Assembly: GCA_923172585.1 (NCBI GenBank)
Contig: OV298644.1
Coordinates: 885,427-949,426, forward strand
Length of the DNA: 64,000 nucleotides
Source of the DNA: Haemophilus influenzae
GTDB lineage: Bacteria; Pseudomonadota; Gammaproteobacteria; Enterobacterales; Pasteurellaceae
Direction of reading: 5' to 3'
This document shows positions 25,412 to 59,251 of the stretch, piece by piece. The translations under genes and the position numbers were made by a program. The stretch's first letter is position 1. Every line of letters begins with the position of its first letter. The notes under the pieces are model-generated. The model saw only the letters and a list, made by a program, of their open reading frames with translations, did no database searches and had not been told where the DNA came from.

Positions 25412-25428
25412 GATCAATTGTAATAAAC

Positions 25429-25459
25429 AAAAGTGCGGTTATAAATAACCGCACTTTAG
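25429..25459 (+). terminator. Uptake-signal hairpin terminator after ansB
   Basis: AAGTGCGGT at 25431-25439 pairs with ACCGCACTT at 25448-25456, separated by 8 A/T bases that extend the stem. Confidence 0.8.
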
Positions 25460-25470
25460 ACCACAATTTA

Positions 25471-25512
25471 TTGATCCAAGTTATGGAATCTCTACCTATT
25501 TGTTGCTATATT
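25471..25512 (+). promoter_or_regulatory. Probable FNR-dependent promoter of dcuB
   Basis: TTGATCCAAGTTAT (25471-25484) has one perfect FNR half-site and one degenerate half-site. TATATT at 25507-25512 is a good -10 element, and the implied start near 25519 puts the box centre at about -41.5, the same geometry as at ansB. The degenerate half lowers confidence. Confidence 0.5.
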
Positions 25513-31960: not shown

Positions 31961-32785
31961 ATGCAGTTTTCCAAAATGCACGGATTAGGTAACGATTTTG
32001 TTGTGGTTGATGGAGTCACTCAAAATGTGTTTTTTACTCCAGAAACGATCCGACGTTTAGCCAATCGCCATTGTGGAATTGGGTTTGATCAACTTTTAAT
32101 TGTTGAAGCTCCTTACGATCCTGAACTCGACTTTCATTATAGAATTTTTAATGCTGATGGAAGCGAAGTTTCGCAATGCGGAAATGGTGCTCGTTGTTTT
32201 GCTCGGTTTGTGACATTAAAAGGGCTAACTAACAAAAAAGACATCTCGGTTAGCACACAAAAGGGTAATATGGTTTTGACGGTAAAAGATGACAATCAAA
32301 TTCGTGTGAATATGGGCGAACCAATTTGGGAACCAGCAAAAATTCCATTTACCGCAAATAAATTTGAGAAAAATTATATTCTGCGTACAGATATTCAAAC
32401 CGTACTATGTGGTGCAGTTTCAATGGGGAATCCTCATTGTGTTGTACAAGTAGATGATATTCAAACAGCAAATGTTGAACAGCTTGGTCCTTTGTTAGAA
32501 AGCCACGAACGTTTTCCTGAGCGTGTCAATGCTGGTTTTATGCAAATCATCAACAAAGAACATATTAAGCTTAGAGTTTATGAACGTGGTGCTGGCGAAA
32601 CTCAAGCCTGTGGAAGTGGTGCTTGTGCAGCTGTTGCAGTTGGAATTATGCAAGGCTTATTGAACAACAATGTCCAAGTAGATTTATCGGGCGGTTCGCT
32701 CATGATCGAATGGAATGGTGTTGGTCATCCACTTTATATGACAGGCGAGGCGACCCATATTTATGATGGGTTTATAACTCTTTAA
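31961..32785 (+). CDS. dapF: Diaminopimelate epimerase
   Basis: A 274-aa PLP-independent epimerase converting LL- to meso-diaminopimelate, feeding both peptidoglycan and LysA (462-1709). The two catalytic cysteines are in [14 protein letters not shown] (first Cys) and [13 protein letters not shown]. The N-terminal [18 protein letters not shown] is diagnostic. Length equals the structurally studied H. influenzae enzyme as I remember it. RBS AAGGA is well placed. Confidence 0.98.
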
Positions 32786-32793
32786 TATTTTTC

Positions 32794-32826
32794 CCCACTT
32801 ATCTTAAAAAAGATGAGGCGTTTTTC
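32794..32826 (+). terminator. Terminator of dapF
   Basis: CTTATCTT and AAGATGAG pair (with one G-T) across a short A loop, followed by GCGTTTTTCTT. Plausible intrinsic terminator on the plus strand. Confidence 0.6.
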
Positions 32827-32956
32827 TTAAATTAGCGTAAACATTTTGTATCTAAATATATTTTTATTGAACTGCTTGATAACTTTGAGTAATCAGAACA
32901 AGCATTTTTCATACAATCTCTAGATTTTTTACTCAAAGAAATAGATTATTAGCATA

Positions 32957-32982
32957 ATAAAAAACCGCCTCTCGGCGGTTCT
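32957..32982 (-). terminator. Terminator of tpx
   Basis: AACCGCC (32963-32969) and GGCGGTT (32974-32980) enclose a 4-base loop. On the minus strand the stem is followed by a T run, directly downstream of tpx. Confidence 0.85.
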
Positions 32983-33002
32983 TGTTTTAAATCTTCTATC
33001 TA

Positions 33003-33500
33003 CTACGCTAACACTGCCAATGCAGCTTCATAGTTTGGCTCTTCTTTAATTTCTTCAACTAACTGGCTGTGTAAAACATTGTTTTGTTCATCTAACACAA
33101 TAACCGCACGAGAAGTTAAACTTGCCAACGGACCAGTTTGAATATCTACGCCTAATTGTAAGTGTAATGCGTGGTTACGAAAAGTTGAAACTGTTTTGGC
33201 ATTTTCAATTCCTTCTGCTCCACAAAAACGAGCTTGAGCAAAGGGCAAGTCTGCTGAAATACAAAGCACTATGGTGTTACTTAATTTTGCCGCTTGTTGG
33301 TTAAATTTACGTACTGAAGTCGCACATACACCTGTGTCGATGCTTGGAAAAATATTTAGGACCTTGCGTTTACCTGCAAAATCGTTTAATGCAACATCGG
33401 TTAAATCATTACCGACTAAAATAAAGTTTTCTACTATTTCGCCTACTTGAGGGAAATGTCCGCCAACTTCAATAGGGTTTCCTGCTAATGTAACTGTCAT
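33003..33500 (-). CDS. tpx: Thiol peroxidase Tpx
   Basis: A 165-aa atypical two-Cys peroxiredoxin that reduces alkyl hydroperoxides with thioredoxin. The peroxidatic Cys is in [15 protein letters not shown] and the resolving Cys in [14 protein letters not shown]. The N-terminal [20 protein letters not shown] matches the family. It is transcribed away from dapF toward a shared terminator region. The degraded yagU copy lies just upstream on the same strand. Confidence 0.96.
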
Positions 33501-33553
33501 AAAATCCTCTTTATTTAGATTAAGTGAAAAGCGTTTAAACTATACCACGCTTT

Positions 33554-33805
33554 CTAATTATTTCCACCAATTAAAGCTATCCAGAATTTGATTTTCGGGA
33601 AAATTTCAGCCACCACACAATAACCAATAGCAAAGACTAATGAAAACAGTATGTGCGTTACCCCGATCCAGTTAAATCCGTGAAATCAATAGGGCTGCGT
33701 GGTGGAAAAGGATGCTCCGCTCCCCATTTAACGAAAGCAGAGATAAAACCTGCAAAAAATTGCAACGCCATAACGACGTTTAGATGGTTCTGAAAATAAG
33801 CTCAT
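33554..33805 (-). pseudogene. Remnant of a YagU (DUF1440) inner-membrane protein
   Basis: The minus strand starts [17 protein letters not shown], then switches frame (an extra T in the run before TGCAGG) to [20 protein letters not shown], followed by PIDF. It switches again to [20 protein letters not shown], then [20 protein letters not shown] and a stop. These blocks align in order with E. coli YagU, but the part between PIDF and the GFNW segment (about 40 residues) and the whole C-terminal third are missing. It is a truncated, frameshifted and internally deleted relic. YagU is linked to acid resistance in E. coli. Confidence 0.75.
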
Positions 33806-34075
33806 TGTTATGTCCTTAAATTAATTAAAAGTATAAAAATTTCCGAGTTTATGAAAGTGTGTAATTTTACGTCTGTTATATCACATTATCAAACAAAAAT
33901 ACTTCAATTGGGTTATCTTTGGCTGGCTGTTCATAAGGTTTTAAAATTTATTAGCAATAGATAAAGTAATTGATTGATTTTTTAGCGGTTGTAGAGCGAG
34001 TATAAGCTTTGTATTACAAAATCTTTTTTGAAAATAGGGAGTATGTTTGAACATAAATCTTCTTGTTTTATTTTG
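33806..34075. other. Intergenic stretch between yagU remnant and purL
   Basis: AT-rich DNA of about 270 bp. I find no open frame of note, no hairpin with a T run and no uptake signal. Only the PurR box and purL promoter at its right end are recognisable. Confidence 0.5.
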
Positions 34076-34105
34076 AATGCAAACGTTTGCTTTGTTCGTT
34101 ATAAT
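34076..34105 (+). promoter_or_regulatory. PurR operator and -10 element of purL
   Basis: GCAAACGTTTGC at 34079-34090 is a perfect palindrome matching the PurR box core. TATAAT at 34100-34105 is an exact -10 hexamer, so the operator occupies the -35/spacer region and should repress purL when hypoxanthine or guanine is available. Confidence 0.85.
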
Positions 34106-34145
34106 ACGTCTGTTTTTTTATTTTTCTTTTATACGGAACTGCAAT

Positions 34146-37100
34146 ATGACTGTCAAAACCTTTCGTGGCTCGCCTGCTCTTTCTGAATTTCGTTTAACTC
34201 AACTTCAACAAAAATGCCAGCAATATCAATTGCCTATTACGTCAGTTTATGCAGAGTATTTGCATTTTGTTGAACAAAAACATCGCTTGTAGAAGATGAA
34301 ATCGTTAAATTACAAGCATTATTGCATTATGGGTCAATGTTTTCTGAACTCAAGCCTGCAGGATATTGTTTAATTGTGACTCCACGAGTGGGGACAATTT
34401 CCTCTTGGTCTTCAAAAGCGACAGACATCGCTCACAATTGTGGTTTGTCGAAGGTAAATCGTATTGAACGTGGTATAGCCTATTACTTCAATATTGAGCG
34501 TGATTTAACCGAAGCAGAATTGGCTACGCTGAAAGATTTATTACACGACCGTATGTTAGAAACCGTGTTAAATCACGAAACAGAAGCAGCCTTGCTTTTT
34601 ACTCAACAAGAACCCAAAGCATTAACTACAATTGATATTTTAAATGGTGGCCGTCAAGCATTAGAACAGGCGAATATTGCCTTGGGTTTAGCGTTGGCAG
34701 ATGATGAGATGGATTATTTAGTGGAAAGTTTTACTGCCTTAAAGCGTAATCCACAGGATGTGGAGCTTTATATGTTTGCACAAGCGAATTCGGAGCATTG
34801 TCGCCATAAAATTTTTAATGCCGATTGGATTATTGATGGCAAAAAACAGGATAAATCGCTGTTTAAAATGATCAAAAATACCTTTGAGCAAACGCCTGAT
34901 TTTGTGCTTTCTGCTTATAAAGATAATGCTGCAGTAATGGAAGGTTCGAAAGTCGGGCGTTGGTTTCCTGATCCTGATGGACAATATCGTGTTCATCAAG
35001 AAGATGTGCACATTTTAATGAAAGTAGAAACACATAACCATCCCACAGCAATTTCGCCATTTCCTGGTGCCGCAACAGGCTCTGGCGGGGAGATTCGTGA
35101 TGAAGGGGCAACGGGGCGTGGGGCAAAACCCAAAGCAGGTTTAACAGGTTTCTCGGTGTCTAACCTCGTTATTCCAAACTTTGAACAACCTTGGGAAAAT
35201 CCATTGTCTAAACCAAATCGCATTGCTTCTGCCTTAGATATTATGATAGATGCGCCTTTAGGTAGTGCGGCATTTAATAATGAATTTGGTCGCCCAGCAT
35301 TATTAGGTTATTTCCGTACTTATGAAGAAAAAGTAAATAGTTTTGCTGGAAAAGAAGTGCGCGGTTATCACAAGCCGATTATGTTAGCGGGAGGAATCGG
35401 TAATATTCGTGGCGAACAGGTTCAAAAAGGCGAAATTCCAATCGGTGCTAAATTGATCGTGTTGGGTGGGGCAGCAATGAACATCGGTTTAGGTGGTGGT
35501 GCTGCTTCTTCGATGGACAGTGGTAAATCAAAAGAAGATTTAGATTTTGCTTCTGTTCAACGTGAAAATCCGGAAATGGAACGCCGCTGCCAAGAAGTTA
35601 TTGACCGCTGTTGGCAATTAGGCGAAGAAAATCCAATCCTGTTTATTCACGATGTGGGTGCGGGTGGTTTATCTAATGCAATGCCTGAATTGGTACACGA
35701 TGGCAAGCGTGGAGGAAAATTCGATCTGCGTTCTATTCTTTGTGATGAAAAAGGTATGTCGCCATTGGAAATTTGGTGTAATGAATCGCAAGAACGTTAT
35801 GTATTAGCCGTTGCGCCAGAAAACCTCGAATTATTTACCGCACTTTGTGAGCGTGAACGTGCCCCTTTTGCAGTGATTGGCGAAGCAACACAAGCAGAAC
35901 ATTTAATCTTGCACGATAGTCATTTCGATAATAATCCAATTGATTTACCAATGAATGTGTTATTAGGTAAAACGCCGAAAATGACGCGTGAGGTTTTGTC
36001 AAAAACAGTGGAAAATCAACCGCTTAAAACAGAAGGCATTCAATTAAAAGAAGCATTCCACCGTGTATTACGTTTACCCGTTGTTGCAGAAAAAACTTTC
36101 TTAATTACGATTGGCGATCGCTCGGTAACAGGAATGGTAGCCCGAGATCAAATGGTGGGTCCTTGGCAAATCCCCGTGTCTGATGTGGCTGTTACTACTG
36201 CTTCACTGGATAGCTACCACGGCGAAGCAATGGCAATGGGCGAACGTTCTCCAGTTGCCTTGCTAGATTTCTCGGCTTCGGCACGTTTAGCTGTGGCGGA
36301 GGCCATTACTAACATTGCTGGCACCCACATTGGCGAGATGAAACGTATTAAACTTTCTGCCAACTGGATGAGTGCAGCAGGTCACACAGGCGAAGATGCG
36401 GGACTTTATGAAGCAGTAAAAGCTGTGGGCGAAGAACTTTGTCCTGCGTTAGGCTTAACTATTCCTGTGGGTAAAGACTCAATGTCGATGAAAACCACTT
36501 GGATCGATAATGGCGAACAAAAATCAGTGACTGCCCCACTTTCATTAGTAATTTCCGCTTTTGCTCGTGTAGAAGATGTACGTAAAACGCTTACGCCACA
36601 ACTTCGTACCGACAAAGGTTTCTCGAGTTTATTGCTAATTGATTTAGGCGAAGGGCATAATCGATTAGGTGCGACCGCACTTGCTCAAGTGTACAAACAG
36701 TTAGGAGACAAGCCTGCCGATGTGGTAAAGGTTCAACGCTTAAAAGATTTTTACAATGCAATGCAAATTTTAGTGGCAGAAGATAAATTATTGGCTTATC
36801 ACGACCGTTCGGACGGCGGTTTAATCACAACTCTTGCAGAAATGGCGTTTGCTGGGCATTGTGGGGTAGAAGTTGATATTTCAGCTTTAGGCGACAACGA
36901 TTTAGCGGTATTATTTAACGAAGAATTGGGAGCGGTTATCCAAGTTGCCGATAGCCAATTAGAAAGCGTACGTGAGGTGTTGAAAGCTCACAATTTGCTT
37001 GGTATTACTCACCAACTTGGTACGGTAACTGTTGATGATCGCTTTGAGATCAGCCGCGGCAGCCATAAATTATTCAGCGAAAAACGTTCTGAATTACGTA

Positions 37101-38038
37101 GTATTTGGGCAGAATTAACTTACCAAATGCAACGCTTACGCGATAATCCAGAGTGTGCTGAGCAAGAGTTTGAAGCTAAGAGAAACCCTGACGACAAAGG
37201 CTTATCCGCATTTTTGACTTACGATGTGAATGAAGATATTACTGCGCCATTTATCAATAAAGGTGTAAAACCAACCATTGCAATTTTACGTGAACAAGGT
37301 GTAAATAGTCATTATGAAATGGCAGCAGCGTTTGATCGTGCAGGCTTTAATGCAATTGACGTGCATATGTCTGATTTAATGATTGGTCGTCGTAATTTAG
37401 CAGAATTCAATGCAATGGTTGCTTGTGGCGGTTTCTCTTACGGCGATGTGCTTGGCGCAGGGGGCGGTTGGGCAAAATCCATCTTATTTAACCCGAAATT
37501 ACACGAGCAATTCAGCCAGTTTTTTATCAATCCAAATACACTGACCTTAGGCGTATGTAACGGTTGTCAAATGATCTCTAACTTGGCGGAAATTATCCCA
37601 GGTACAGAAAACTGGCCGCATTTTGTACGCAACAAATCTGAACGCTTTGAAGCGCGTGTGAGTTTAGTGAAAATTAATGAAGTGGATTCAGTTTGGTTTG
37701 CAGGAATGGCAGGCTCACATATGCCCATTGCGGTTTCTCACGGGGAAGGGCAAGTTAAGTTTAAATCAGTTGAACAGTTTGCAGGCTTAAAAGCACAAGG
37801 CATCATTGCCGCACAATATATTGACAACAACGGTAACCCCACCGAACTATATCCTGCCAATCCGAATGGTTCTTCGGAGGGCATTACTGCAATTACAAAT
37901 CTTGATGGGCGAGTTGCTATTATGATGCCACACCCTGAACGTGTGTTCCGTGCTGTGAGTAACTCTTGGCACCCAGAAAACTGGACAGAAGACGGTGCGT
38001 GGATGAGATTATTCAGAAATGCAAGAATGGTATTTTAG
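34146..38038 (+). pseudogene. purL: Phosphoribosylformylglycinamidine synthase, frameshifted near the N-terminus
   Basis: The start MTVKTFRGSPALSEFRLTQL is followed after about 45 codons by a premature TAG. The rest of the 1297-aa enzyme is intact in another frame from about 34282 onward. Adding one A to the five-A run at 34276-34280 joins them as [20 protein letters not shown]. The large part has the FGAM-synthase blocks ([44 protein letters not shown]-like [14 protein letters not shown]) and a C-terminal glutaminase with Cys in LGVCNGCQM and the HPERVF motif. It catalyses FGAR to FGAM in purine synthesis. As read, the N-terminal PurS-like domain would be lost. Confidence 0.9.
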
Positions 38039-38065
38039 AGAAATAAATGGACTTGAACGCTAAAA

Positions 38066-38110
38066 AAGTGCGGTGGAAATCTAGCAGATTTTCACTGTGC
38101 TTCGGTGTAA
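38066..38110 (+). terminator. Degenerate uptake-signal hairpin after purL
   Basis: AAAGTGCGGTGGAAATCT is followed by AGATTTTCACTGTGCTT. The right arm departs from ACCGCACTT at several bases but still pairs over AAATCT/AGATTT. This is the left edge of the damaged tract, and the decay of the right arm may belong to it. Confidence 0.4.
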
Positions 38111-38244
38111 TTTTATAATTGTTTTTATGTTTTTGTTTGATGATTAATTATTTTTATTGTTAAGTTAGCGATAAATCATCAAATTAGATAATATACGAAA
38201 TGAATTAATATAAATAAATATTTTATGATGTCAGAACTAGGTTA

Positions 38245-38605
38245 ATGACGTTAATGCGTGTTATTAATGACTTGATAATAAGATATCAAATTTTAGATAT
38301 TTTTCCCATGCCAGAAGTATGCGAGTAAGAAATTAATCATGCACTTATTCAAGTAGGTAAACAATCAAGCAAGCAATTAAGCGAACTGGAAAGTAAACTA
38401 GCTTGCAAACAGTGACTTGTATAATACATTTCAATGCAAACAAATTATTCTTCGACAAATAAATCAGGTAATTGCAAAGAGAACAATATTAGAAAAAATA
38501 AGGAGATTGTTTACTAAACATAAAAGAATTACTGCTAGACAAAATAGGCAGAAATTTATCGTTCCAATTAAACAACTATGGAGCGATTATGTTTATTTCG
38601 CCTAA
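38245..38605 (+). pseudogene. Unrecognised decayed coding sequence
   Basis: Frame 38245-38415 reads MTLMRVINDLIIRYQILDIF, PMPEVCE, stop, then EINHALIQVGKQSSKQLSEL, ESKLACKQ, stop. A second open stretch, 38417-38605, contains RTILEKIRRLFTKHKRITAR and overlaps the start of the GT25 relic. The composition is protein-like but I do not recognise a family. Given the neighbours, it may be the end of another lipooligosaccharide glycosyltransferase; that is a guess. Confidence 0.35.
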
Positions 38606-39308
38606 CGGCATTATTAATCTAGCAATTTCTACAGATTGAAAAGCTTATGTGCAAGCGTAGTTTGAACTGTTATTTTCGAATAATGTAATACAAGCTTTTC
38701 ACTTTTTTGATGCTATTTATAGAAAATCGGATCTGAATCATATATTGTTTCAACGTTACAATGAAAATAGGCGGTTGAATGCAAAAGGCAATCCTTTAAC
38801 CTTGGATGAATTAGGCAGTTATGCTAGCAATTATTCTATGTGGGAGAAATGAGGAGAATTAGATTACCCTATTATTGTATTAGAAGATAATACTAAATTA
38901 ATCAATAATTTCTTACAAGTACTTGATTTCACTAATAGTGATAAAAATATGTTTGAACTTTTCTGGTTACAACCTGATAGTTTGAAAAATAAAGGAAAAT
39001 TGATCGCTAATTTCAGTAATCTTTCGATATATCAATTTAGTAAAGGATTTGCTGGTGCTACAGGTTATTACTTAATTCCCCAAGTAGCAAGGAAATTTTT
39101 AACACAATGCAAGGATTGGTATTTAACCGTGGATGTGACAATGAATCGTTTTGTTGAGAATAAAGTGCCAAATTATGCAATAGTAGCATTTTAATTAGTA
39201 GATGATGGCGAGATAGAATCAACTATTTATGAGAAACAAATGAAACAGAGATCATTAAAAATAGTGATTATGAGAGGGCTATTTATTCTAAAGACTAATA
39301 TTGAATGA
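38589..39308 (+). pseudogene. Family 25 glycosyltransferase, degraded by in-frame stops
   Basis: One frame, opened by GGAGCGATTATG, carries GT25 features throughout: VIQAFHFFDAIYRKSDLNH, NAKGNPLTLDELGSYASNYS, PIIVLEDNTKLINNFLQVLD, FSKGFAGATGYYLIPQVARK and TVDVTMNRFVENKVPNYA. Stops interrupt it at 38637 (TGA), 38658 (TAG), 38850 (TGA) and 39192 (TAA), with the final TGA at 39306-39308. No frameshift is needed. The conserved LEDD motif reads LEDN. Relatives add hexoses to H. influenzae lipooligosaccharide. The lpsA gene at 48778 belongs to the same family. Confidence 0.8.
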
Positions 39309-39396
39309 CGTATTTAAAAGTTAATCCACGATAAATTGACATAATAGACAAAGCCAATTCGTTGATATTGATCGTCAAATATTAGAAATTGTTCGA

Positions 39397-40236
39397 TTAA
39401 GGAATTAGAAGTAGTAATCCTACTGGATCAAAAGGTTCAACAGACGTTGGCGTAGGCAATTCGCTGAATATTTCAACAAATGGATTGGGCGGATTAACTT
39501 TTTGATGTTGGTATAAGTTGTCGATTCGGTCTGATTGAATATCTTCGCGTAAATTACGAAGACATGCTTGTACAACAGAAATCGTGTTTGGACAAGGATG
39601 AATTATTGCAATGGCGGAGAAGTGTATTCTATCATAGTGAATTGCTGCGGTAAATTGACGAAGAACGTCTGCGAATTCGTGACTATTATCTAAAAATACA
39701 TTGCGAAAAAATGAACGCATGAGTTGCTATGCTGCAATTGGTCCAGCTACAGATTATGCTATTGATCGACTATCTAAAACGAATAAATGTTTTTCTTGAA
39801 GATTTGTCATTAAATAAGTCATTAATTGGAGATCTGAGATTGCTGCACTCCCGATATGATTGTTCATACCGATAGCATCACGCACAATACTTTTAGCAGT
39901 ATTAACGCGATCATTTACTTGTGCTGCAGACATTGCTAAATGCTGCAATACGGCTTCTATTGTCATTGCACTAACTGATTGCATCGGCATATCGATTAAA
40001 ATATCACAACCTTGAGATCGTGCTTCGTGATTACGTGCTCAAGCATAGAGCGCAGCATGAATAATTGCAACAGAAATTTCACGTGGCATAGCAAAAATTG
40101 CTGAATCTGCTTTGAGATGATAGCCTATATCATAAATCACAATAGCAAGTTTACTTTGAGCAAAAGACAAAGAGGGATAAAGTGCTTTAGAAAAAACAAT
40201 GAAATTTTTTAAAGCAGTTTTTATTAGAATATTCAT
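39397..40236 (-). pseudogene. yibQ: YibQ-type divergent polysaccharide deacetylase, degraded
   Basis: One minus-strand frame covers the whole gene: SFAQSKLAIVIYDIGYHLKA, stop (40039-40041), DILIDMPMQSVSA, NTAKSIVRDAIGMNNHIGSA, HLFVLDSRSIA, two stops near 39736-39756, then NVFLDNSHEFADVLRQF and PFDPVGLLL. Homologues have IDDIG where this has IYDIG, destroying a metal-site aspartate. Many other conserved positions are altered. It follows envC with a TGATG stop/start overlap, the order gpm-envC-yibQ seen in E. coli. No frameshift is required to read it. Confidence 0.8.
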
Positions 40237-40414
40237 CAACGAACCAACTCTGCAGGATTTACTGGCGTTCCATTACGGCTAATAACAAAATAAAGCGCAG
40301 AACGTGATATTTACCATGTATTTCCTACTTGAGCAATAACCTGTCCTGCTGAAACAAGTTGACTAACTTTCACTGATACAGTTTGATTGAAGCCATATGA
40401 ACTTGAATCAGTTT

Positions 40415-40553
40415 CGCCGTGTTTAACAATAACCATATAACCATAACCATTTAAATATCCCGCTAAAATGACGCGTACAGCAGCAATTGCTTTAACAGCT
40501 ATGCCTGATGATGCGCCAATTACCATACCGTTCCAACGTACTTCGCCTGCTTA
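40415..40553 (-). repeat. envC internal repeat, copy A (normal LytM position)
   Basis: The segment encoding AGEVRWNGMVIGASSGIAVK through MVIVKHGE is partly duplicated at 41243-41391. The two copies share an exact 19-base string (CATAACCATTTAAATATCC, here at 40442-40460) and recognisable similarity over about 140 bp. Confidence 0.7.
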
Positions 40554-41242
40554 AATACAGCTAAAAGTTTGCAAAATTGAACGAGTATCTAAAAAGAATA
40601 ATGTTTTTTTGCAGCCCCTAATCCGATTGTATTATTAAGTAATTGGCGTTCTTGCACAGTTGATTGATAAGGTTTTGATGATCGTTTTTCATCAGCTTTA
40701 TGGCGTTGAGCAAGTGCCTATCTTTTACGTTTTTATTGTTCGTGCGCTGATTGTTCAGCTCGTTGAATTTCTTGACGAATTGCTTGTTCGTCTGCTTATA
40801 GTGCATTCAATTTATCTCCATCTAGGGCTAGATTTTTATTGAGTTCATTCAGCGTAGATTGATGCTATTGATGTGCTTTTTGCAATGATTGTTGTAGTAT
40901 TTTCTGTGTGGAAAATTGATTTCGGTGATTCTTTTGTTGAGAAAAAATTGCCATATTTTGTACTGCAATTTGAGCTTGCATAGCATTAAAATTAATAATC
41001 ATTTCAAAAAGAACATGATTTAAATGCTGATAATAAACTATCATTCGCACTGCTTTTGTCGGATATTGATCAAACATTCGTCCAATCAGCGATGGATTAA
41101 TGCCTGAACGATAAATTATACCTATATATTTGGCTAATCGTGCTTTTTGCTCACGTTCCTGTTTAACTAATTGTTTGACCTGCTAATCTGCATCGGCAAT
41201 TTGCTTACGAATTTCATTTAAACTTATATCAATTTAAAGCAG

Positions 41243-41391
41243 TTCGCCTTCAACAATAATAATTTTACAATCATAACCATTTAAATATCCTTTTAAATTA
41301 GCGTGCAGCACGCAATTGCTTCAACAGGCGTGCCTCCTGATGCGCAAATTGCTACACCATTTCATTGACTTCGCCTGCTTGGATGAGAACC
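41243..41391 (-). repeat. envC internal repeat, copy B (misplaced near the N-terminus)
   Basis: A diverged second copy of the LytM-domain segment, with the shared 19-mer at 41272-41290. In one frame it starts IQAGEVNEMV and in another reads ASGGTPVEAIACCTLI, a LytM-like stretch. It replaces the start of the expected coiled coil between FLVLIQ and LNEIRKQ. Confidence 0.7.
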
Positions 41392-41645
41392 AAAAATATT
41401 AATAAATTGCAACCTAAAACTGCGGTTAATAATAATAATGTGTTTTTTGATTCACGCCAAAACGCAGCATAATTCATCCTAATTTCGTAAAATTCGCAAT
41501 TCTTATCATGTTTGTTAAAAGGCGATGAAGTTTGATTGTTATTGTTTGCTAAAGTTGAGGAAATCATCCCTTTTAACTTTTAAAGCTAAGGATTTTTTGC
41601 TATAAAATGTGCGTTCTTTTTATTTGAAAAAATTAGGAGATTCTT

Positions 41646-42329
41646 ATGGAATTAGTATTTATCAGTCACGGTTTTAGTGAATTGAATGCGAAAAACTTAT
41701 TGACAGGCTGGCGTGATGTGAATTTAACTGAACGTGCTGTGGAAGAAGCTATTGCTGCGGGTAAAAAACTGTTAGATAATGGTTATGAATTTGATATTGC
41801 ATTTACCTCTGTTTTAACTCGAGCAATCAAAACTTGTAACATCGTGTTAAAATAATCCCATCAATTATGGATTCCACATGTATAAAACTGGCGTTTAAAT
41901 GAACGTCATTATGGTGCTTTACAAGGTTTAGATAAAAAAGCGATTGCGGAGCAATACGGTGACGAACAAGTTCATATTTGGCGTCGTTCTTACGACATTT
42001 CTCCACCAGATTTAGATCCACAAGATCCAAATTCTGCACACAATTACCGTCGCTACACAAATATTCCGTCTGATGTTGTGCCAAACACAGTAAATTTAAA
42101 ATTAACATTAGAACGTGCATTACCATTCTGGGAAGATCAAATTTCACCAGCAATGCTTTCTGCCAAACGTGTTTTAGTGGTTGCTCACGGAAATTCACTT
42201 CGTGCGTTGGCAAAACATATTATCGGTATTTCTGATGCTGAAATTATGGATTTTGAAATTCCAACAGGCCAACATTTAGTTTTAAAACTTGATGATAAAT
42301 TAAATTACGTAGAACATTACTATCTTTAA
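41646..42329 (+). pseudogene. gpmA: Phosphoglycerate mutase (2,3-BPG-dependent), degraded
   Basis: One frame of 228 codons spans the whole gene. It reads [60 protein letters not shown] (41853-41855), [52 protein letters not shown], then [18 protein letters not shown] and HYYL. The RHG catalytic motif, with the phospho-histidine and its partner arginine, reads SHG, and the usual SxWN reads SELN. Two stops plus loss of conserved residues predict no enzyme. GpmA interconverts 2- and 3-phosphoglycerate, so a living cell would need another mutase. Confidence 0.88.
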
Positions 42330-42363
42330 TTAAGTTCAACGTATTGTTGTTCTAACTATATAA

Positions 42364-42394
42364 AACAAAACCCCGCAAATTAGCAGGGTTTTTA
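42364..42394. terminator. Bidirectional terminator between gpmA and rpmE
   Basis: AAAACCCCGC and GCAGGGTTTTT face each other across AAATTA with one mismatch. An A run on the left and T run on the right serve both converging genes. Confidence 0.75.
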
Positions 42395-42406
42395 AGCAAG
42401 TCCAAA

Positions 42407-42619
42407 TTATTTTGTGCTTTGAATTTTGAAACAGCTGTTGAAAAGCTCAACACGACCACCAGTATCAACAACACGTTGTTTACCAGTGTAGAATGGGTGG
42501 AAGTTACCACACACATCAAGATTGATGTCTTTGCCTAAAGCTGAACGTGTTTTGATCACATTACCGCAAGAACAAGTCGCAGTAATTTCTTTATATTCTG
42601 GATGAATACCTTGTTTCAT
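42407..42619 (-). CDS. rpmE: Ribosomal protein L31 with one zinc cysteine replaced
   Basis: A 70-aa L31 ([20 protein letters not shown]). The zinc-type L31 ligands are Cys16, Cys18, Cys37 and Cys40. Here the first three are present but position 40 is Phe ([14 protein letters not shown]), which a single TGC to TTC change would explain. The C-terminus [14 protein letters not shown] also departs from the usual basic FNxRFK pattern. The frame is intact, so protein may be made. L31 sits on the 50S central protuberance. The gene adjoins the damaged tract on its right edge. Confidence 0.9.
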
Positions 42620-42795
42620 AGAAAAACCTCAAAATGAAGCCACGCCGCTATAGGAACTTTCTCCCCACACCGCGTGAGTGAATAATACGCCATAATTGGC
42701 ACCAAATAGGTTGCGAATTATACTGAAAAAATGCAGATAAACAAGCTCTATTTTCGTGTAAAATCATCAGCATTTTTAACCGCACTTTGCTTTTT

Positions 42796-43932
42796 ATGTT
42801 AGCAAAATCTTCCATCAATGTGCCATTTGCCAAATCTGTTTTAGCTTGGTACGACAAGTTTGGACGCAAGCATTTACCTTGGCAGCAAAATAAAACGCTT
42901 TATGGTGTATGGCTTTCTGAAGTGATGTTGCAACAAACGCAAGTTGCGACGGTAATTCCTTATTTTGAGCGGTTTATCAAAACATTTCCAAATATCATCG
43001 CACTTGCCAATGCTTCACAAGATGAAGTGTTACATTTATGGACAGGATTAGGCTATTATGCACGAGCGCGTAATTTACATAAAGCCGCTCAAAAAGTGCG
43101 GGATGAATTTAATGGAAATTTCCCAACAAATTTTGAGCAAGTTTGGGCGTTATCTGGAGTGGGACGTTCAACTGCTGGTGCCATTTTATCTTCTGTTTTA
43201 AATCAGCCTTATCCAATTTTAGATGGTAATGTGAAACGTGTGTTGGCACGTTATTTTGCTGTTGAGGGATGGAGTGGCGAGAAAAAAGTAGAAAATCGCT
43301 TGTGGGCATTAACGGAGCAAGTTACACCTACGATGCGTGTGGCAGATTTTAATCAAGCAATGATGGACATTGGTGCAATGGTTTGCACGCGAACTAAGCC
43401 CAAATGCGATCTTTGTCCGTTAAATATAGATTGTTTGGCTTATAAAAATACAAACTGGGAAAAATTTCCTGCTAAAAAACCTAAAAAAGCGATGCCAGAA
43501 AAAACTACCTATTTTTTAATTTTGTCGAAAAATGGCAAAGTATGTTTGGAACAGCGAGAAAACTCAGGATTATGGGGCGGATTATTTTGTTTTCCACAAT
43601 TTGAAGATAAATCCTCGTTGCTTCATTTTTTAGCCCAAGAAAAAGTCACGCATTATCAAGAATGGCCGAGTTTTCGACATACATTCAGCCATTTTCATTT
43701 AGATATTCATCCAATTTACGCCGAAATGGAGAGCACTTTATGCGTAGAGCAGGCTAATTTAGACTGGCGAAAAGTGATGGAAAGCACAAAAGAATACCAA
43801 TCAAACCTATCAAGTGCGGTCAAATATTGGTATGATCCACAAAATCCTGAACTGATCGGGCTGGCTCAGCCTGTGAAAAATCTTTTAATACAATTTGTAA
43901 GGAATCATTATGGCAAGAACAGTATTTTGTGA
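42796..43932 (+). CDS. mutY: Adenine DNA glycosylase MutY
   Basis: A 378-aa base-excision enzyme removing A opposite 8-oxoguanine. It has the catalytic Glu in [18 protein letters not shown], the helix-hairpin-helix [15 protein letters not shown], the catalytic Asp in [13 protein letters not shown], four [4Fe-4S] cysteines in [17 protein letters not shown], and a C-terminal Nudix-like domain ([11 protein letters not shown]). I start it at ATG 42796; an upstream in-frame TTG is unlikely. It overlaps yggX by 23 bp. All catalytic residues I can check are present. Confidence 0.96.
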
Positions 43933-44182
43933 ATATCTCAAAAAAGAAGCGGAAGGCTTAGATTGTCAACTTTATCCAGGAGAGTTGGGGAAGCGTATTT
44001 TTGATTCAGTAAGTAAACAGGCTTGGGGCGAATGGATTAAGAAACAAACGATGCTTGTGAATGAAAAAAAACTTAATATGATGAATGCAGAGCACCGTAA
44101 ATTATTAGAACAAGAAATGGTTAAATTTTTGTTTGAAGGTAAAGATGTTCATATTGAAGGTTATGTTCCACCATCAAATTAG
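43910..44182 (+). CDS. yggX: Fe(2+)-trafficking protein YggX
   Basis: A 90-aa protein starting [20 protein letters not shown], followed by [20 protein letters not shown]. It matches the YggX family, which protects iron-sulfur clusters from oxidative damage. Cys7 is the conserved functional cysteine. The gene overlaps the end of mutY and precedes mltC, the same mutY-yggX-mltC order as in E. coli, so these three are likely one operon. Confidence 0.96.
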
Positions 44183-44196
44183 TTATCTATCCTACA

Positions 44197-45270
44197 ATGA
44201 AAAAATATTTATTATTGGCATTATTGCATTTTTTGTATGCTTGTAGTAATTCATCGAATCAAGGTATTAACTATGATGAAGCCTTTGCTAAAGACACGCA
44301 AGGGTTAGATATTCTCACAGGGCAATTCTCGCATAATATTGACCGCATTTGGGGCGTCAATGAATTGTTAGTGGCAAGCCGTAAAGATTATGTGAAATAT
44401 ACAGATTCTTTTTATACGCGTAGCCATGTGAGTTTTGATGAAGGTAATATCGTTATTGAAACCCAGCAAGATCTAAATCGTTTACATAATGCTATTGTCC
44501 ATACCTTGTTAATGGGAGCGGATGCAAAAGGTATTGATTTATTTGCATCTGGCGATGTGCCGATTAGCTCTCGCCCATTCCTTTTGGGGCAGGTTGTGGA
44601 TCATCAAGGGCAACAAATTGCTAATCAAGTTATCGCAAGTAATTTCGCCACTTATTTGATTCAAAATAAATTGCAAACACGTCGATTACAAAACGGGCAT
44701 ACCGTGCAATTTGTCTCTGTTCCTATGATTGCAAACCACGTAGAAGTGCGTGCACGAAAATATTTACCATTGATTCGTAAAGCTGCACAACGTTATGGCA
44801 TTGATGAAAGTTTGATTTTGGGCATTATGCAAACAGAATCAAGTTTTAACCCATATGCGATTAGCTACGCAAATGCTATTGGTTTAATGCAGGTGGTGCC
44901 TCACACTGCGGGTCGAGATGTATTTGCAATGAAAGGCAAAGGTGGACAGCCATCAACGCGTTATTTATATGATCCTGCAAATAATATTGATGCTGGCGTA
45001 TCTTATTTGTGGATTTTACAAAATCAATATTTAGATGGAATTACAAATCCAACCTCAAAACGTTTTGCCATGATTTCTGCGTATAATAGTGGTGCAGGCG
45101 CAGTGTTACGTGTTTTTGATAATGATAAGGATACGGCGATTTACAAAATCAACCAAATGTATCCAGAACAAGTTTATCGCATTCTAACGACGGTTCACCC
45201 ATCATCACAAGCACGCAATTATTTGTTGAAAGTTGATAAGGCACAGAAAAAATTCCGTGTTAGACGATAA
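44197..45270 (+). CDS. mltC: Membrane-bound lytic murein transglycosylase C
   Basis: A 357-aa lipoprotein with a type II signal ([20 protein letters not shown], lipidated Cys16) and a C-terminal SLT domain. The catalytic Glu is in [20 protein letters not shown], followed by [18 protein letters not shown] and [16 protein letters not shown]. It cleaves peptidoglycan to 1,6-anhydromuropeptides at the outer membrane. It begins 14 bp after yggX. Confidence 0.95.
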
Positions 45271-45440
45271 TTAGATTTTTTCAGATAATCAAAATGCTCG
45301 CTGGATAACACCATTGAGCATTTTTTATTAAAAAGTGCAGCAAATTTTAAAATAGTTTTCATTATTTCGTTGTTTTAATAAACATATTGATGATTAACTA
45401 TTCAAATGAAATATTTTTTCCATTTTTTTCAATTTAGTTA

Positions 45441-45469
45441 TTGACCGAAAACCGAAAAAATAGTTTAAT
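45441..45469 (+). promoter_or_regulatory. Strong promoter for the tRNA pair
   Basis: TTGACC (45441-45446), 17 bp, TTTAAT (45464-45469), followed by the GC-rich CGCCCCG discriminator typical of stringently controlled stable-RNA promoters. Confidence 0.75.
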
Positions 45470-45505
45470 ACGCCCCGTTGTCAGGCAGTAGCCAATAACG
45501 ATAAC

Positions 45506-45581
45506 GCCTCGATAGCTCAGTCGGTAGAGCAGGGGATTGAAAATCCCCGTGTCGGTGGTTCGATTCCGCCTCGAGGCACCA
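45506..45581 (+). tRNA. tRNA-Phe (GAA)
   Basis: A 76-nt cloverleaf with acceptor arms GCCTCGA/TCGAGGC, anticodon loop TTGAAAA (GAA, Phe), T loop GGTTCGATTCC and an encoded CCA end. Confidence 0.97.
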
Positions 45582-45583
45582 TT

Positions 45584-45659
45584 TCCTCCTTAGTTCAGTC
45601 GGTAGAACGGTGGACTGTTAATCCATATGTCGCAGGTTCGAGTCCCGCAGGAGGAGCCA
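45584..45659 (+). tRNA. tRNA-Asn (GTT)
   Basis: A 76-nt cloverleaf two bases after tRNA-Phe, with acceptor arms TCCTCCT/AGGAGGA, anticodon loop CTGTTAA (GTT, Asn), T loop GGTTCGAGTCC and an encoded CCA end. Co-transcribed with tRNA-Phe. Confidence 0.97.
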
Positions 45660-45668
45660 AATTTAGAA

Positions 45669-45700
45669 AGGCCGCTAAAGAAATTTAGTGGCTTTTTGCT
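45669..45700 (+). terminator. Terminator after the tRNA pair
   Basis: GCCGCTAAA and TTTAGTGGC (one G-T pair) enclose GAAA, followed by TTTTTGC. A clear intrinsic terminator. The next 170 bp to 45870 show nothing else I recognise. Confidence 0.85.
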
Positions 45701-45876
45701 TTCTTATATATAAAATATATAATATATCTAGTCTTGTAACTATAACTAGGCATCAAAATTCAAAATGGCGTATCAATGAGCGAGAGCCTTTTTATTTTTG
45801 ATGTTAGCAAGCGACCTAAGTCGCTTATGTTTAACTTAAAGAAGAAAAATAAATCGACTTTTATTTTGGAATAGAT

Positions 45877-47945
<2,069 letters not shown>

Positions 47946-48036
47946 AAACGAGTTGCGTTCCCAAATCGTTCATTTTATTTGCATTTCTCAGCCCTGATTC
48001 TGGTATTTAATTGAAATCTCAAATTAGGAAATTACT

Positions 48037-48684
48037 ATGAATCAGTCAATTTAATCCCCATTCGGCAACACCGCTGAAGAACGCGTACTTAATGCAATTA
48101 ATGCCTTTAAAAATGGAACTGGCGTATTAGTTTTAGATGATGAAGATCGTGAAAATGAAGGCGATTTAATTTTTCCAGCAGAAACAATCACACCAGAACA
48201 AATGGCAAAATTAATTCGTTATGGCAGTGGCATTATTTGTTTATGCATTACTGATGAACGTTGCCAACAACTCGATTTACCGTCAATGGTAGAACACAAT
48301 AATAGCGTAAACAAAACGGCTTTCACTGTGACGATTGAAGCCGCAAAAGGTGTTTCTACTGGCGTATCTGCCGCAGACCGAGTCACAACCATTCAAACGG
48401 CTATTGCTGATAATGCAGTTCCAACAGATTTACATCGTCCCGGTCATGTCTTTCCACTTCGTGCAGCAAATGGTGGCGTACTTACTCGTCGCGGACACAC
48501 AGAAGCTTCCGTTGATTTAGCGCGTCTGGCAGGATTTAAAGAAGCAAGCGTTATTTGTGAAATCACGAATGACGACGGCACAATGGCTCGCACCCCCGAG
48601 ATTGTAGAATTTGCGAAAAAATTTGGTTATTCTGTGCTAACCATTGAAGATTTAGTTGAATATCGTTTAGCACATAATATTTAA
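48037..48684 (+). pseudogene. ribB: 3,4-dihydroxy-2-butanone-4-phosphate synthase, nonsense at codon 6
   Basis: The frame begins MNQSI, then TAA (48052-48054), then [20 protein letters not shown] and the catalytic [20 protein letters not shown], continuing intact to HNI at 48684 (216 codons, normal length). Family members have Leu at the stop position, so TTA to TAA is the likely change. The next in-frame ATG (48202) lies after the essential DRENEGD loop, so a restart would be inactive. RibB makes the four-carbon unit of riboflavin from ribulose 5-phosphate. It is controlled by the upstream FMN riboswitch. A real stop would make the cell a riboflavin auxotroph. Confidence 0.92.
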
Positions 48685-48688
48685 AATG

Positions 48689-48735
48689 CAAAAGTGCGGT
48701 GAAAATTTCTATGATTATTTTACCGCACTTTTTAT
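48689..48735 (+). terminator. Uptake-signal hairpin terminator after ribB
   Basis: AAGTGCGGT (48692-48700) and ACCGCACTT (48722-48730) with A/T-extended arms and a following T run. Confidence 0.85.
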
Positions 48736-48777
48736 ATTATACTGTTCCAACTTTTTTATTTATTTGGGTTACTTATT

Positions 48778-49547
48778 ATGCATAATGCAGCTCAGCACAA
48801 TTATGTTATCAGTTTAACTACTGAACAAAAACGCCGAAAACACATTACCGAAGAATTCGGTAAGCAGAATATTCCTTTCGAATTTTTTGATGCTATTACG
48901 CCCGACATTATTGAAGAAACCGCTAAAAAATTTAATATTACATTAGATCGATCTCCAAAAGCCAAGTTGTCGGATGGGGAAATTGGTTGTGCATTAAGCC
49001 ATATTGTTTTATGGGATTTAGCATTAGAAAATAATTTAAACTATATCAATATCTTTGAAGATGATATTCATTTGGGGAAAATGCCAAAGAATTATTAGAA
49101 ATTGATTATATTTCTGATGATATTCATGTTTTAAAATTAGAAGCAAATGGCAAGATGTTCTTTAAACAACCAAAATCTGTAAAATGCGATAGAAATGTTT
49201 ATCCCATGACGGTAAAGCAATCAGGATGTGCAGGATATACTGTTACAGCAAAAGGGGCTAAATATTTGCTTGAATTAGTAAAAAATAAACCACTTGACGT
49301 GGCGGTTGATTCACTTGTTTTTGAGGATTTTTTACATTTTAAAGATTATAAAATAGTACAACTTTCTCCTGGTAATTGCGTTCAAGATTTTGTGTTACAT
49401 CCAGATAATCATTTTGAAAGCAGTTTACAAGAAGGACGAGATAGAGTACACGGAAATCAACGCAAGTTTTCTATTTTAGAAAAAATAAAAAATGAATTTG
49501 GACGAGTAAAAATAAAAATGTTTGGAAAACAAGTACCATTTAAATAA
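48778..49547 (+). pseudogene. lpsA: LpsA-type lipooligosaccharide glycosyltransferase (GT25), frameshifted
   Basis: The N-terminal part ([47 protein letters not shown]) and the C-terminal part ([52 protein letters not shown]) are in different frames. One base is missing at GGGGAAAA (49074-49081); restoring it gives a 256-aa GT25 protein. LpsA adds a hexose to the third heptose of the H. influenzae inner core. From memory, residue 151 has been reported to influence sugar choice; in the repaired sequence it is Cys. The acidic EDD motif is intact. An off frame would truncate the outer core at that heptose. Confidence 0.85.
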
Positions 49548-49548
49548 T

Positions 49549-49594
49549 AAAAGTGCGGTTAAAAATCTTATTAAATTTTAACCGCACTTTTTTG
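49549..49594. terminator. Uptake-signal hairpin between lpsA and trmL
   Basis: AAGTGCGGT (49551-49559) and ACCGCACTT (49581-49589), arms extended by TTAAAA/TTTTAA, with A-rich left and T-rich right flanks. It can terminate both converging genes. Confidence 0.88.
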
Positions 49595-49595
49595 T

Positions 49596-50078
49596 TTATT
49601 TTACTTCTGGTAAATTTACCGCACCTTTATAGCCTAATTGTCGCCACGCTTCATAAACCGTTACTGCAACAGAATTAGACAAGTTCATACTGCGGCTATT
49701 GGCAGTCATTGGAATGCGGATTTTTTGTTCCATCGGCATTTCATTTAAAATTGACATCGGAATGCCACGAGTTTCTGGGCCAAACATTAAATAATCCCCA
49801 AGTTTAAATTTCACTTGGCTATGTGCTGGACAGCCTTTTGTTGTAAGTGCAAAAAGGCGTTTGGGTTTTTCGCTTTCTAAAAAGGCTTCAAAAGTCTTGT
49901 GGCGTTTGATTTCCGCAAATTCGTGATAATCCAAACCTGAGCGGCGTAAGCGTTTATCATCCCAAGTGAAACCTAGTGGTTCAATTAAGTGCAAGCGAAA
50001 TCCTGTGTTGGCACAAAGTCGAATAATGTTACCAGTATTTTGTGGGATTTCTGGTTCATATAAAACGATATCTAACAT
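49596..50078 (-). CDS. trmL: tRNA (cytidine/uridine-2'-O)-methyltransferase TrmL
   Basis: A 160-aa SPOUT-fold enzyme methylating the wobble base of tRNA-Leu. The knot motifs are [32 protein letters not shown] and [21 protein letters not shown] structure of the H. influenzae homologue (YibK) established the trefoil knot fold in this family. It follows rsmD on the same strand by 10 bp. Confidence 0.95.
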
Positions 50079-50088
50079 AATTTTTTCT

Positions 50089-50670
50089 CTAATTCTGATA
50101 TAAACGATAACTCACTATTCCTGTCGTTTTTTCTTTCAATAACGTCCAGTTTTCAGGAGTGATGAGCGGTTTATCTTTCTCTGTTTCTACGTAAATTAAC
50201 GCATTGGGTTTTAGCCAGTTATTTTCACAAAGCAAACTAATTGCTTGTTCTGCCAAATTAAAATGAAATGGAGGATCTAAAAATACCACATCAAAGTGCG
50301 GTTGATTTTGTGGCTGTTTTAGAAAATCCAAACTACTTTGATTAATTACTTCAGCCTGTTCTGATGAGCATTTGAGTGTTTGTAAATTCTTTTTTAATTG
50401 ATTGGCGACAGTTTTATCTAGTTCTAAAAAAGTTACTTTTTTCGCTTGGCGAGAAAGTGCTTCAAAACCTAACGAACCACTCCCCGCAAAGCCATCTAAA
50501 CATTCAGATTGGTGGATATAAGGCATTAACCAATTAAAAAGCGTTTCTTTCACTCTATCGCCAGTTGGGCGTAAGCCTTCAGAATTTAATACGGGAAGTT
50601 TTCGCCCTCGCCATAGACCTGCAATAATGCGAACTTCGCCCTTTGCATTTGGCGTTTGTATTTTTTTCAT
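50089..50670 (-). CDS. rsmD: 16S rRNA m2G966 methyltransferase RsmD
   Basis: A 193-aa Rossmann-fold methyltransferase starting [20 protein letters not shown]. It has the SAM loop [18 protein letters not shown] and the catalytic motif [10 protein letters not shown], plus [17 protein letters not shown]. It methylates N2 of G966 in 16S rRNA. It is divergent from ftsY, the same neighbourhood as in E. coli (rsmD-ftsYEX). Confidence 0.95.
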
Positions 50671-50766
50671 AAAGATTCGATTTTTATTGAAAATTGTGCT
50701 TAGTTTAGACGATTTTTTGCTAGAATGAACGACATTTTTATCGGATTACAGTTAAGAGAGCATTTT

Positions 50767-51968
50767 ATGGCTGAAGAAAATAAAAAAGGCGGATTTTGGG
50801 CATCGTTATTTGGGCGTAATAAAAAGCAAGATGAACCTAAAATTGAGCCAATAATTGAAGAAGAAAAGATAAAAGATATCGAGCCGTCTATTGAAAAATT
50901 TGAAGCTAATGATTTAGTCGAAGAAGAAAAAATACAGGAAATTTCAACCGCACTTGAGCCGATTGAAGAAATCATCGATGCGAAAAATTTAGAAGATGAC
51001 CTTCAGCCTGTTGCTGAAATTGAAACTCGCGAAAAGCCAAGTGAAGGGGGCTTTTTTAGTCGTTTAGTTAAGGGGTTACTGAAAACTAAACAAAATATTG
51101 GTGCGGGTTTTCGTGGTTTTTTCTTAGGAAAGAAAATTGATGATGAGTTGTTTGAAGAATTAGAAGAACAACTTTTAATTGCGGATATTGGCGTGCCGAC
51201 AACAAGTAAAATCATCAAAAATTTGACTGAACATGCAAGCCGTAAAGAATTACAAGATGCCGAGCTTTTATATCAACAATTAAAAGTAGAAATGGCGGAT
51301 ATTCTTGAGCCAGTAGCACAACCGTTAGAGATTGATAGCACGAAAAAACCTTATGTGATTTTAATGGTGGGCGTAAATGGCGTGGGTAAAACAACGACAA
51401 TTGGTAAGCTCGCACGTAAATTTCAGGCTGAAGGAAAATCAGTGATGCTTGCGGCGGGCGATACTTTCCGTGCGGCGGCTGTTGAGCAGCTTCAAGTTTG
51501 GGGAGAACGTAATCATATTCCAGTTGTTGCCCAAAGCACGGGGTCTGATTCTGCATCGGTGATTTTTGATGCGATGCAATCAGCGGCTGCACGCAATATT
51601 GATATTCTTATTGCGGATACGGCGGGTCGTTTACAAAATAAAAATAACTTAATGGACGAACTGAAAAAATTGTTCGTGTTATGAAAAAATATGATGAAAC
51701 TGCGCCACATGAAATTATGCTTACGCTGGATGCTGGCACGGGACAAAATGCTATTAGCCAAGCGAAGTTATTTAATGAGGCAGTGGGTTTAACAGGGATC
51801 TCTCTAACTAAATTAGATGGCACGGCAAAAGGTGGCGTGATTTTTGCCATAGCCGATCAGTTTAAGTTGCCTATTCGCTATATCGGTGTAGGCGAGAAAA
51901 TTGAAGATTTACGTGAGTTTAATGCGAAAGAATTTATTGAGGCATTATTCGTTCATGAAGAAGAATAA
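50767..51968 (+). pseudogene. ftsY: Signal-recognition-particle receptor FtsY, frameshifted near the C-terminus
   Basis: An acidic N-terminal region (MAEENKKGGFWASLFGRNKK, rich in Glu/Asp) is followed by the NG GTPase domain. It shows G1 GVNGVGKTTTIGKLARKF, DTFRAAAVEQL and DTAGRLQNKNNLMDELKK. The frame then stops at LFVL. The rest continues in another frame: IVRVMKKYDETAPHEIMLTL, DAGTGQNAISQ, TKLDGTAKGG. One A added to the six-A run at 51664-51669 repairs it. I start it at ATG 50767 rather than 50725, because MAEENKKGGF fits the family start. FtsY receives SRP-ribosome complexes at the membrane and is essential in E. coli, so an error in the read is likely. Confidence 0.92.
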
Positions 51969-51986
51969 AAAGAATAAGGAAGAATT

Positions 51987-52643
51987 GTGATTAAGTTCTC
52001 AAATGTTTCTAAAGCCTATCATGGTGCAACGCAGCCCGCGTTACAAGGCTTGAATTTTCATCTTCCAGTGGGAAGTATGACTTACTTAGTTGGGCATTCA
52101 GGCGCAGGGAAAAGTACATTACTCAAGCTTATTATGGGAATGGAAAAAGCCAATGCGGGTCAAATTTGGTTTAACGGACACGATATTACTCGTTTGTCAA
52201 AATATGAAATTCCATTTTTGCGTCGCCAAATTGGTATGGTTCATCAAGATTATCGTTTATTAACAGATCGTACAGTGGTGGAAAATGTGGCATTGCCGTT
52301 GATTATTGCAGGTATGCATCCAAAAGATGCGAATACTCGAGCAATGGCATCTTTAGATCGTGTAGGATTGCGTAATAAAGCCCACTATTTGCCACCGCAA
52401 ATTTCTGGCGGGGAACAGCAACGCGTTGATATTGCGCGTGCGATTGTGCATAAACCTCAGCTCTTATTGGCAGATGAACCAACGGGTAATTTAGATGATG
52501 AACTTTCTTTAGGTATTTTTAATTTGTTTGAAGAATTTAATCGTCTCGGAATGACTGTGTTAATTGCTACTCACGACATTAATTTAATTCAACAAAAACC
52601 AAAACCTTGTCTTGTGCTTGAACAAGGTTATTTACGTTATTAA
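51987..52643 (+). CDS. ftsE: Cell-division ATP-binding protein FtsE
   Basis: A 218-aa ABC ATPase with a GTG start preceded by AAGGAAGAATT. Walker A is VGHSGAGKSTLLKLIMG, the Q-loop is in HQDYRLL, the signature is ISGGEQQRVDIARAI, Walker B is LLLADEPTGNLDD and the switch His is in LIATHDINL. With FtsX it transmits division-site ATPase cycles to periplasmic amidase activators of the EnvC type, whose gene here (40236-41477) is degraded. Confidence 0.96.
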   Translation: MIKFSNVSKAYHGATQPALQGLNFHLPVGSMTYLVGHSGAGKSTLLKLIMGMEKANAGQIWFNGHDITRLSKYEIPFLRRQIGMVHQDYRLLTDRTVVENVALPLIIAGMHPKDANTRAMASLDRVGLRNKAHYLPPQISGGEQQRVDIARAIVHKPQLLLADEPTGNLDDELSLGIFNLFEEFNRLGMTVLIATHDINLIQQKPKPCLVLEQGYLRY

Positions 52644-52652
52644 GGAATAATC

Positions 52653-53585: not shown

Positions 53586-53599
53586 TTGGATATCAAAAG

Positions 53600-53634
53600 A
53601 AAAGCGAATTTCTTAAAAGAAATTCGCTTTTTTA
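53600..53634 (+). terminator. Terminator of ftsYEX
   Basis: AAGCGAATTTCTT and AAGAAATTCGCTT form a near-perfect 12-13 bp stem with an A-rich loop, followed by TTTTT. Confidence 0.9.
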
Positions 53635-53679
53635 GTTAGAAGTGAAATATTTCGCTGTTGTAGTTTAGGAAGTAAATAG

Positions 53680-54861: not shown

Positions 54862-54875
54862 TTTTAACTCCTTTT

Positions 54876-56219: not shown

Positions 56220-56221
56220 AA

Positions 56222-56887: not shown

Positions 56888-56897
56888 GGCGTTCTCC

Positions 56898-58704: not shown

Positions 58705-58717
58705 TTAAAATAAAAGC

Positions 58718-58891: not shown

Positions 58892-59251
<360 letters not shown>

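Follow-up and report, generated by a model that had tools for sequence, protein, structure and literature searches.

The window analysed here is a stretch of 64,000 nucleotides (positions 885427-949426) from a one-contig assembly of Haemophilus influenzae (G000; 1984730 bases, stated completeness 97.12%), in which a run of genes between purL and rpmE appears to have decayed. The closest named relative that we found, Haemophilus aegyptius NCTC8502 (NZ_LS483429.1, locus L029), is collinear with the window across 32727-49156. Read from the left, purL (34322..38038, forward strand) forms the left flank and the register anchor for what follows; its frame breaks near 34275 and then runs uninterrupted from 34322 to the stop codon. 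Thereafter comes a blended tract (38103..42541), in which, starting from a shared left edge, the single letters of two structural alleles of the purL–rpmE interval are interleaved. It takes in the lex2A region (38103..38480, forward); a GT25 glycosyltransferase gene (38589..39332, forward) in the position after lex2A, presumably the gene that goes by the name lex2B; yibQ (Polysacc_deac_2; 39396..40238, reverse); envC (40238..41470, reverse); gpmA (41646..42329, forward); and rpmE (L31; 42407..42619, reverse), which holds its last few altered positions.

The two alleles are each seen whole in a relative. In NCTC8502, the order is purL, lex2A with (GCAA)30, the GT25 gene, yibQ, envC, gpmA and rpmE, all intact after purL. 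In a second genome of the genus (G004), with flanks ~92-98% identical to the window per 250 bp, purL is followed by anmK, murQ, yibQ, envC and gpmA, the last three again intact. Here, anmK and murQ, coding for anhydro-N-acetylmuramic acid kinase and N-acetylmuramic acid 6-phosphate etherase, occupy the lex2 slot and make the allele ~830 bp longer ahead of yibQ. The NCTC8502 locus can be equated with the lex2 locus of H. influenzae, because two lex2A primer sites published in PMC6479036 match there exactly; moreover, a GT25 transferase gene comes directly after a GCAA tandem repeat there, and lex2A is listed with this repeat in PMC2651432. The window itself differs in having neither feature in recognisable form: the primer sites are absent from it at up to 3 mismatches, and tandem repeat detection finds no GCAA array there, though that of NCTC8502 is a perfect (GCAA)30, both being lost to the overlay by the second allele. 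As for anmK-murQ, a search of NCTC8502 gave nothing beyond two matches of ~30 bp, whereas a search of the source assembly gave no intact copy, a 130-bp trace within the tract and two ~30-bp matches elsewhere; the 5' ends of both genes nevertheless persist in the window as ghosts.

A first reading of this DNA, made from the sequence alone, had described a tract of genes decayed by substitution, and such a tract is real: against the syntenic NCTC8502 locus, 38041-42620 departs by 536 substitutions and by 9 indel events, of which the largest, at 17 bases, falls inside the GCAA repeat, while most of the flanking sequence differs by just 1-2%. Per 500 bp, mismatch runs at 8.8-21% across 38001-41500 and at 3-5% across 41501-42500, as against mostly 0-5% (maximum 8.4%) in the rest of 1-49000 and 17.9% in the partial bin 49001-49156; 24501-25500 and the sequence beyond ~49156 lack a counterpart in the NCTC8502 stretches fetched for this comparison. 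Of the sharp edges reported for the tract, only the left one stands, with 0 substitutions in 37875-38102 and then 37 within 38100-38199; the right one fades gradually through gpmA and rpmE to an end near 42541. Likewise, GT25, yibQ and gpmA are each readable in one frame with internal stops, but the supposed freedom from indels fails for GT25, which has a 1-base deletion near its end; envC has three small indels relative to NCTC8502. The unrecognised open reading frame (ORF) placed at the head of the tract proves to be the lex2A region overlaid by anmK.

The provenance of the altered letters is clearest at the left end. When each allele is aligned with gaps to the 440 letters of 38041-38480, 251 agree with both alleles, 80 with lex2 only, 91 with anmK only and 18 with neither, a count that is partly fitted and has no shuffle beside it. 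The lex2-only and anmK-only letters alternate singly across sequences that are not homologous, namely a GCAA repeat and a kinase gene, and no process of mutation or recombination known to us alternates letters in this manner. Over the lex2A region lie the spacer between purL and anmK and then the 5' end of anmK; this overlay renders the repeat unrecognisable and scores z 8.1 in a block test from which homologous-register controls were excluded right of 39400. Further along, a ghost of the murQ 5' end (39276..39408, forward) lies over the 3' ends of GT25 and yibQ (z 7.3 for 39241-39420; 35/39 in the bin at 39250), and a ghost of the C-terminal (LytM/M23) segment of envC (41211..41430, reverse) lies over the N-terminal segment of the same gene (z 13.4; 59/62 in the bin at 41250), a similarity match placing this trace at 41218-41422. 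In all three the second allele is ~830 bp out of register, and they sit where a single left register with small drift predicts. Between them the signal is weaker. GT25, overlaid by what the register makes anmK, has z 3.2 at 38861-39240 and only 1.0 at 38481-38860; yibQ of the backbone allele, under mainly murQ by register, has block z values of 2.9 and 1.6; envC, under yibQ and then envC by register, gives z 0.1-2.1 over 40241-41210; and gpmA forms the weakly overlaid tail.

The main test left the window out of the alignment. In the left register, one allele was aligned against the other (band 110, simple gap costs), and the substitutions of the window were then found at 334/1528 columns where the alleles differ, as against 154/2573 where they agree, a ratio of 3.65; of the 334, 230 (69%) carry the letter of the second allele. 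Neither 25 block shuffles (ratio <=1.32, letters <=0.43) nor eight wrong registers of the same DNA (<=1.27 and <=0.41) come near these values. Leaving out the three strongest blocks still gives a ratio of 2.78 and a letter share of 0.58, with controls at <=1.43 and <=0.43, and among seven other scoring schemes five gave ratios of 2.8-3.5 without shuffles and two gave 2.2 and 2.8 with two shuffles each. This test took the place of a fitted alignment of the second allele, which overfits: with cheap gaps it explains 432/536 substitutions against 363-374 in 6 shuffles, and with dearer gaps 376 and 352 against 287-315 and 238-282. An unconstrained global alignment of the alleles fell into the homologous register and was uninformative. 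Thus, most of the letters that can be judged trace to one of the two alleles, in a register that is set by the common edge and stands out from all eight wrong registers and 25 shuffles: the tract reads as both alleles interleaved from purL onward, the second staying out of step once the length difference has been passed. Among adjacent differing columns in three gap-free stretches, 75 pairs draw on the same source and 32 switch, a mild clustering that would fit more than one mode of letter-picking.

These results bear directly on the idea that random miscalls or low coverage, with no second allele involved, produced the tract. The share of transitions (204/536) is indeed near random, and the assembly has other ORF-poor tracts, one of them (L120, below) with no second component found; but random errors would not spell out one particular second allele in one particular register, nor would they concentrate where the two alleles differ, and we regard this explanation as highly improbable. 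The proposal of bad base calls was thus right about the class, a sequence error, and wrong about noise, most of the damaged letters that can be judged being those of the second allele ~830 bp out of register.

The substitution spectrum also speaks against a mutational origin. G:C to T:A change had been suggested at many positions; this class does not dominate, making up 102 of the 536 substitutions (19%), fewer than the A:T/T:A swaps (132; 25%) or the transitions (38%). Two outgroups (G001 and G007) agree at 2627 sites in 39450-42331; of these, 265 show a change private to the window and 60 one private to G004, whereas at 2867 such sites in the right flank the figures are 39 and 45. Focal hypermutation by damage, error-prone synthesis or a targeted mutator would account for dense substitutions with few indels; against it stand the lack of any dominant class, the recurrence of the pattern after a length difference elsewhere (L123, below) and the fact that the shifted second allele predicts the changes, a mutator being blind to the letters of another allele. 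We consider it the least probable of the explanations weighed here, scarcely worth entertaining. Two related candidates were set aside. A mutational-spectrum reading based on an apparent purine-to-T excess on the coding strand of yibQ and envC was dropped, the second allele having predicted the letters. Copying from neighbours, as in phasing-like errors, fares no better: derived letters match their neighbours less than expected (82 vs 133 at -1; 89 vs 136 at +1), an avoidance that may be the residue of a gap-tolerant aligner.

Haemophilus being naturally competent, a genuine block of pseudogenes or a degraded allele imported by transformation might also be envisaged. The sharp left edge next to a clean purL would suit such an origin, as would the codon-position pattern: compared with G004, third positions are not enriched among the changes in yibQ or in the N-terminal portion of envC, though they are in gpmA. 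However, natural pseudogenes would be expected to show indels alongside substitutions, and changes independent of unrelated neighbouring genes; instead, there are 9 indel events for 536 substitutions, and the changes track a shifted second allele, so that one gene shows through another at a constant distance. Further, such a block would lose the only phosphoglycerate mutase that we found in the assembly: gpmA is broken as written there, and no other His_Phos_1 gene and no iPGM gene was found. A truly dead gpmA would therefore cost the cell dearly, and a natural origin of this kind appears very improbable. Two of the causes put forward in the sequence-only reading, a focal mutational event and a degraded allele brought in by recombination, are rejected, since neither would overlay one gene with another gene's letters at a displacement counted from purL. 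The alignment of 38-43 kb to other genomes that it proposed as a check is what revealed the two interleaved alleles and settled the cause. No second copy of the region came to light in the assembly, a 9-kb DNA search giving only the tract itself and a 34-base match, and a plasmid search gave no match to the region. An M23 search of the assembly identified two M23 genes other than envC, with open frames of 227 and 408 aa. With the tract recognised as an artefact, the cells themselves probably carry undamaged copies of gpmA, envC, yibQ and rpmE.

Genes elsewhere had been described as clean, which is fairly true of the window and untrue of the genome. Among 20 evenly spread 20-kb samples of the assembly (L119-L138), ORF-poor tracts cover 85305 of 400000 bases (21%) and occur in 10, as against 3007 of 340000 bases (0.9%) and one of 17 samples in G004. 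One affected sample (L126) holds an rRNA operon, the scan for RNA genes having covered 7 of the 10. Large ORF-poor tracts are present, for example, at L120:5000-20000 and in L134, L135 and L136, and L123 and L120 were the two looked at closely. At L123 (424.8-427.8 kb of the assembly), the poor tract follows a difference in repeat copies that amounts, by match coordinates, to ~570 bp (G004) or ~582 bp (NCTC8502). With NCTC8502 as the backbone and the same sequence, shifted, as the second component, a shift of 580 gives a ratio of 2.55 with 98/156 letters (63%) and one of 600 gives 2.46 with 93/159 (58%), whereas the remaining 24 of 26 shifts give ratios <=1.55 and letter shares <=0.49. Thus, the pattern recurs at a structural difference at L123.

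Several observations weigh against the tract being a blend of two alleles, or against extending that account to the genome. Within the tract, 154 of the 488 substitutions in aligned columns fall where the alleles agree in the allele-allele alignment, possibly through strain polymorphism together with an alignment that differs from the one originally used. Of the 13 blocks, only 5 score above every control, with z 0.1-2.4 in the remaining eight, and away from the strong blocks a gapless scan shows for the most part little of note. At L123, shifts of 550 and 565 on the NCTC8502 backbone are unremarkable though near the predicted shift; on the G004 backbone the peaks are lower (1.86-2.04 for shifts 550-600, with 2.04 at 550 and 2.02 at 600, and 45-48% of letters), and a shift of -200 rivals them (1.90; 50%). 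At L120 (125-140 kb), no second component emerged among the stretches tried, with 0/154 and 1/90 segments significant. Finally, the detailed demonstration is limited to two tracts.

Taking both sides together, we place a probability of roughly 93% on the tract being a chimeric consensus of two structural alleles rather than a biological sequence; the fault most likely lies in the database entry and not in the living bacterium. Briefly, we advance the following mechanism. The anmK-murQ allele, entering through reads or through a second assembly, would have been aligned from the left onto a lex2-type backbone, with the shared left sequence acting as the anchor and the other allele being forced along the backbone. 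Gap-tolerant alignment of unlike sequences would then have yielded a mixture of matching columns, gaps and differing columns, and at the last of these the consensus would have picked the letter of either allele, favouring the backbone, with the second allele fading rightward. The same process would have operated at at least one other site in the assembly. The likeliest source would be two related H. aegyptius-like genomes that were present together in one sample or data set and were joined into a single circle.

The identity of the second component differs along the tract. Its anmK part is closest to G004, its murQ part is nearer to other Haemophilus than to G004 (50.3 vs 38.3), and at 41211-41430 it fits the envC of NCTC8502 better than that of G004 (132.4 vs 117.5). 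It is possible that it was either a related strain or a second form of one strain. In a variant of the latter, one culture would have held two near-isogenic chromosomes with lex2AB exchanged for anmK-murQ and other differences in repeat copies, i.e., real within-strain heterogeneity. This is hinted at by the better fit of both the envC component and the shifted sequence of L123 to NCTC8502-like than to G004-like DNA; but the genome-wide spread of ORF-poor tracts suits two different genomes better, and we deem such heterogeneity unlikely.

A collapsed consensus of two haplotypes is known from assembly mainly as block-wise haplotype switching. The chimeric tract is alike in that two real sequences have been forced together, the letters of both survive and the damage sets in at a structural difference. 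It differs in being mixed letter by letter, with the second haplotype out of register for kilobases; judged by titles and abstract openings, we found no paper on a letter-by-letter, out-of-register consensus.

The locus also offers some observations apart from the artefact. The lex2 genes and anmK-murQ are alternative contents of one purL-yibQ slot (L029:5300-6600 vs L021 of G004), and, no anmK-murQ having been found in NCTC8502, genes for recycling peptidoglycan sugars seem to have been replaced there by a phase-variable surface-sugar locus; our literature search found no paper on a lex2/anmK-murQ exchange. A related GT25 gene, 73-74% identical to that of the window, sits elsewhere near rpmE or gpmA in other genomes (L023 of G006; L027/L032 of G002, H. 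seminalis), and hence the GT25 gene may be mobile within this neighborhood. At the start of purL in the window there is an apparent single-base frameshift (34275); the purL of NCTC8502 is likewise broken, via different small indels, and lacks 57 bp. To the right of the tract, 46500-47500 shows raised divergence from NCTC8502 (5-8% per 500 bp) with long open frames, which looks like ordinary recombination, and 49156-64000, with no counterpart in the fetched NCTC8502 stretches, may mark a rearrangement boundary.

Closed PacBio/HGAP genomes are available for the biogroup aegyptius (PMC6838629). If the present assembly serves to represent a species in a public set, as seems to be the case, and if much of its ORF-poor fifth has the cause demonstrated at two tracts, then work that draws on it for gene content, pseudogenes, essentiality or divergence will report false gene loss and false hypermutation. 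Other genomes can be screened for the signature, an apparent "decay" rich in substitutions and poor in indels that sets in at a structural difference and continues out of register; and the signature can also be used in reverse, to read which second allele the sample contained.

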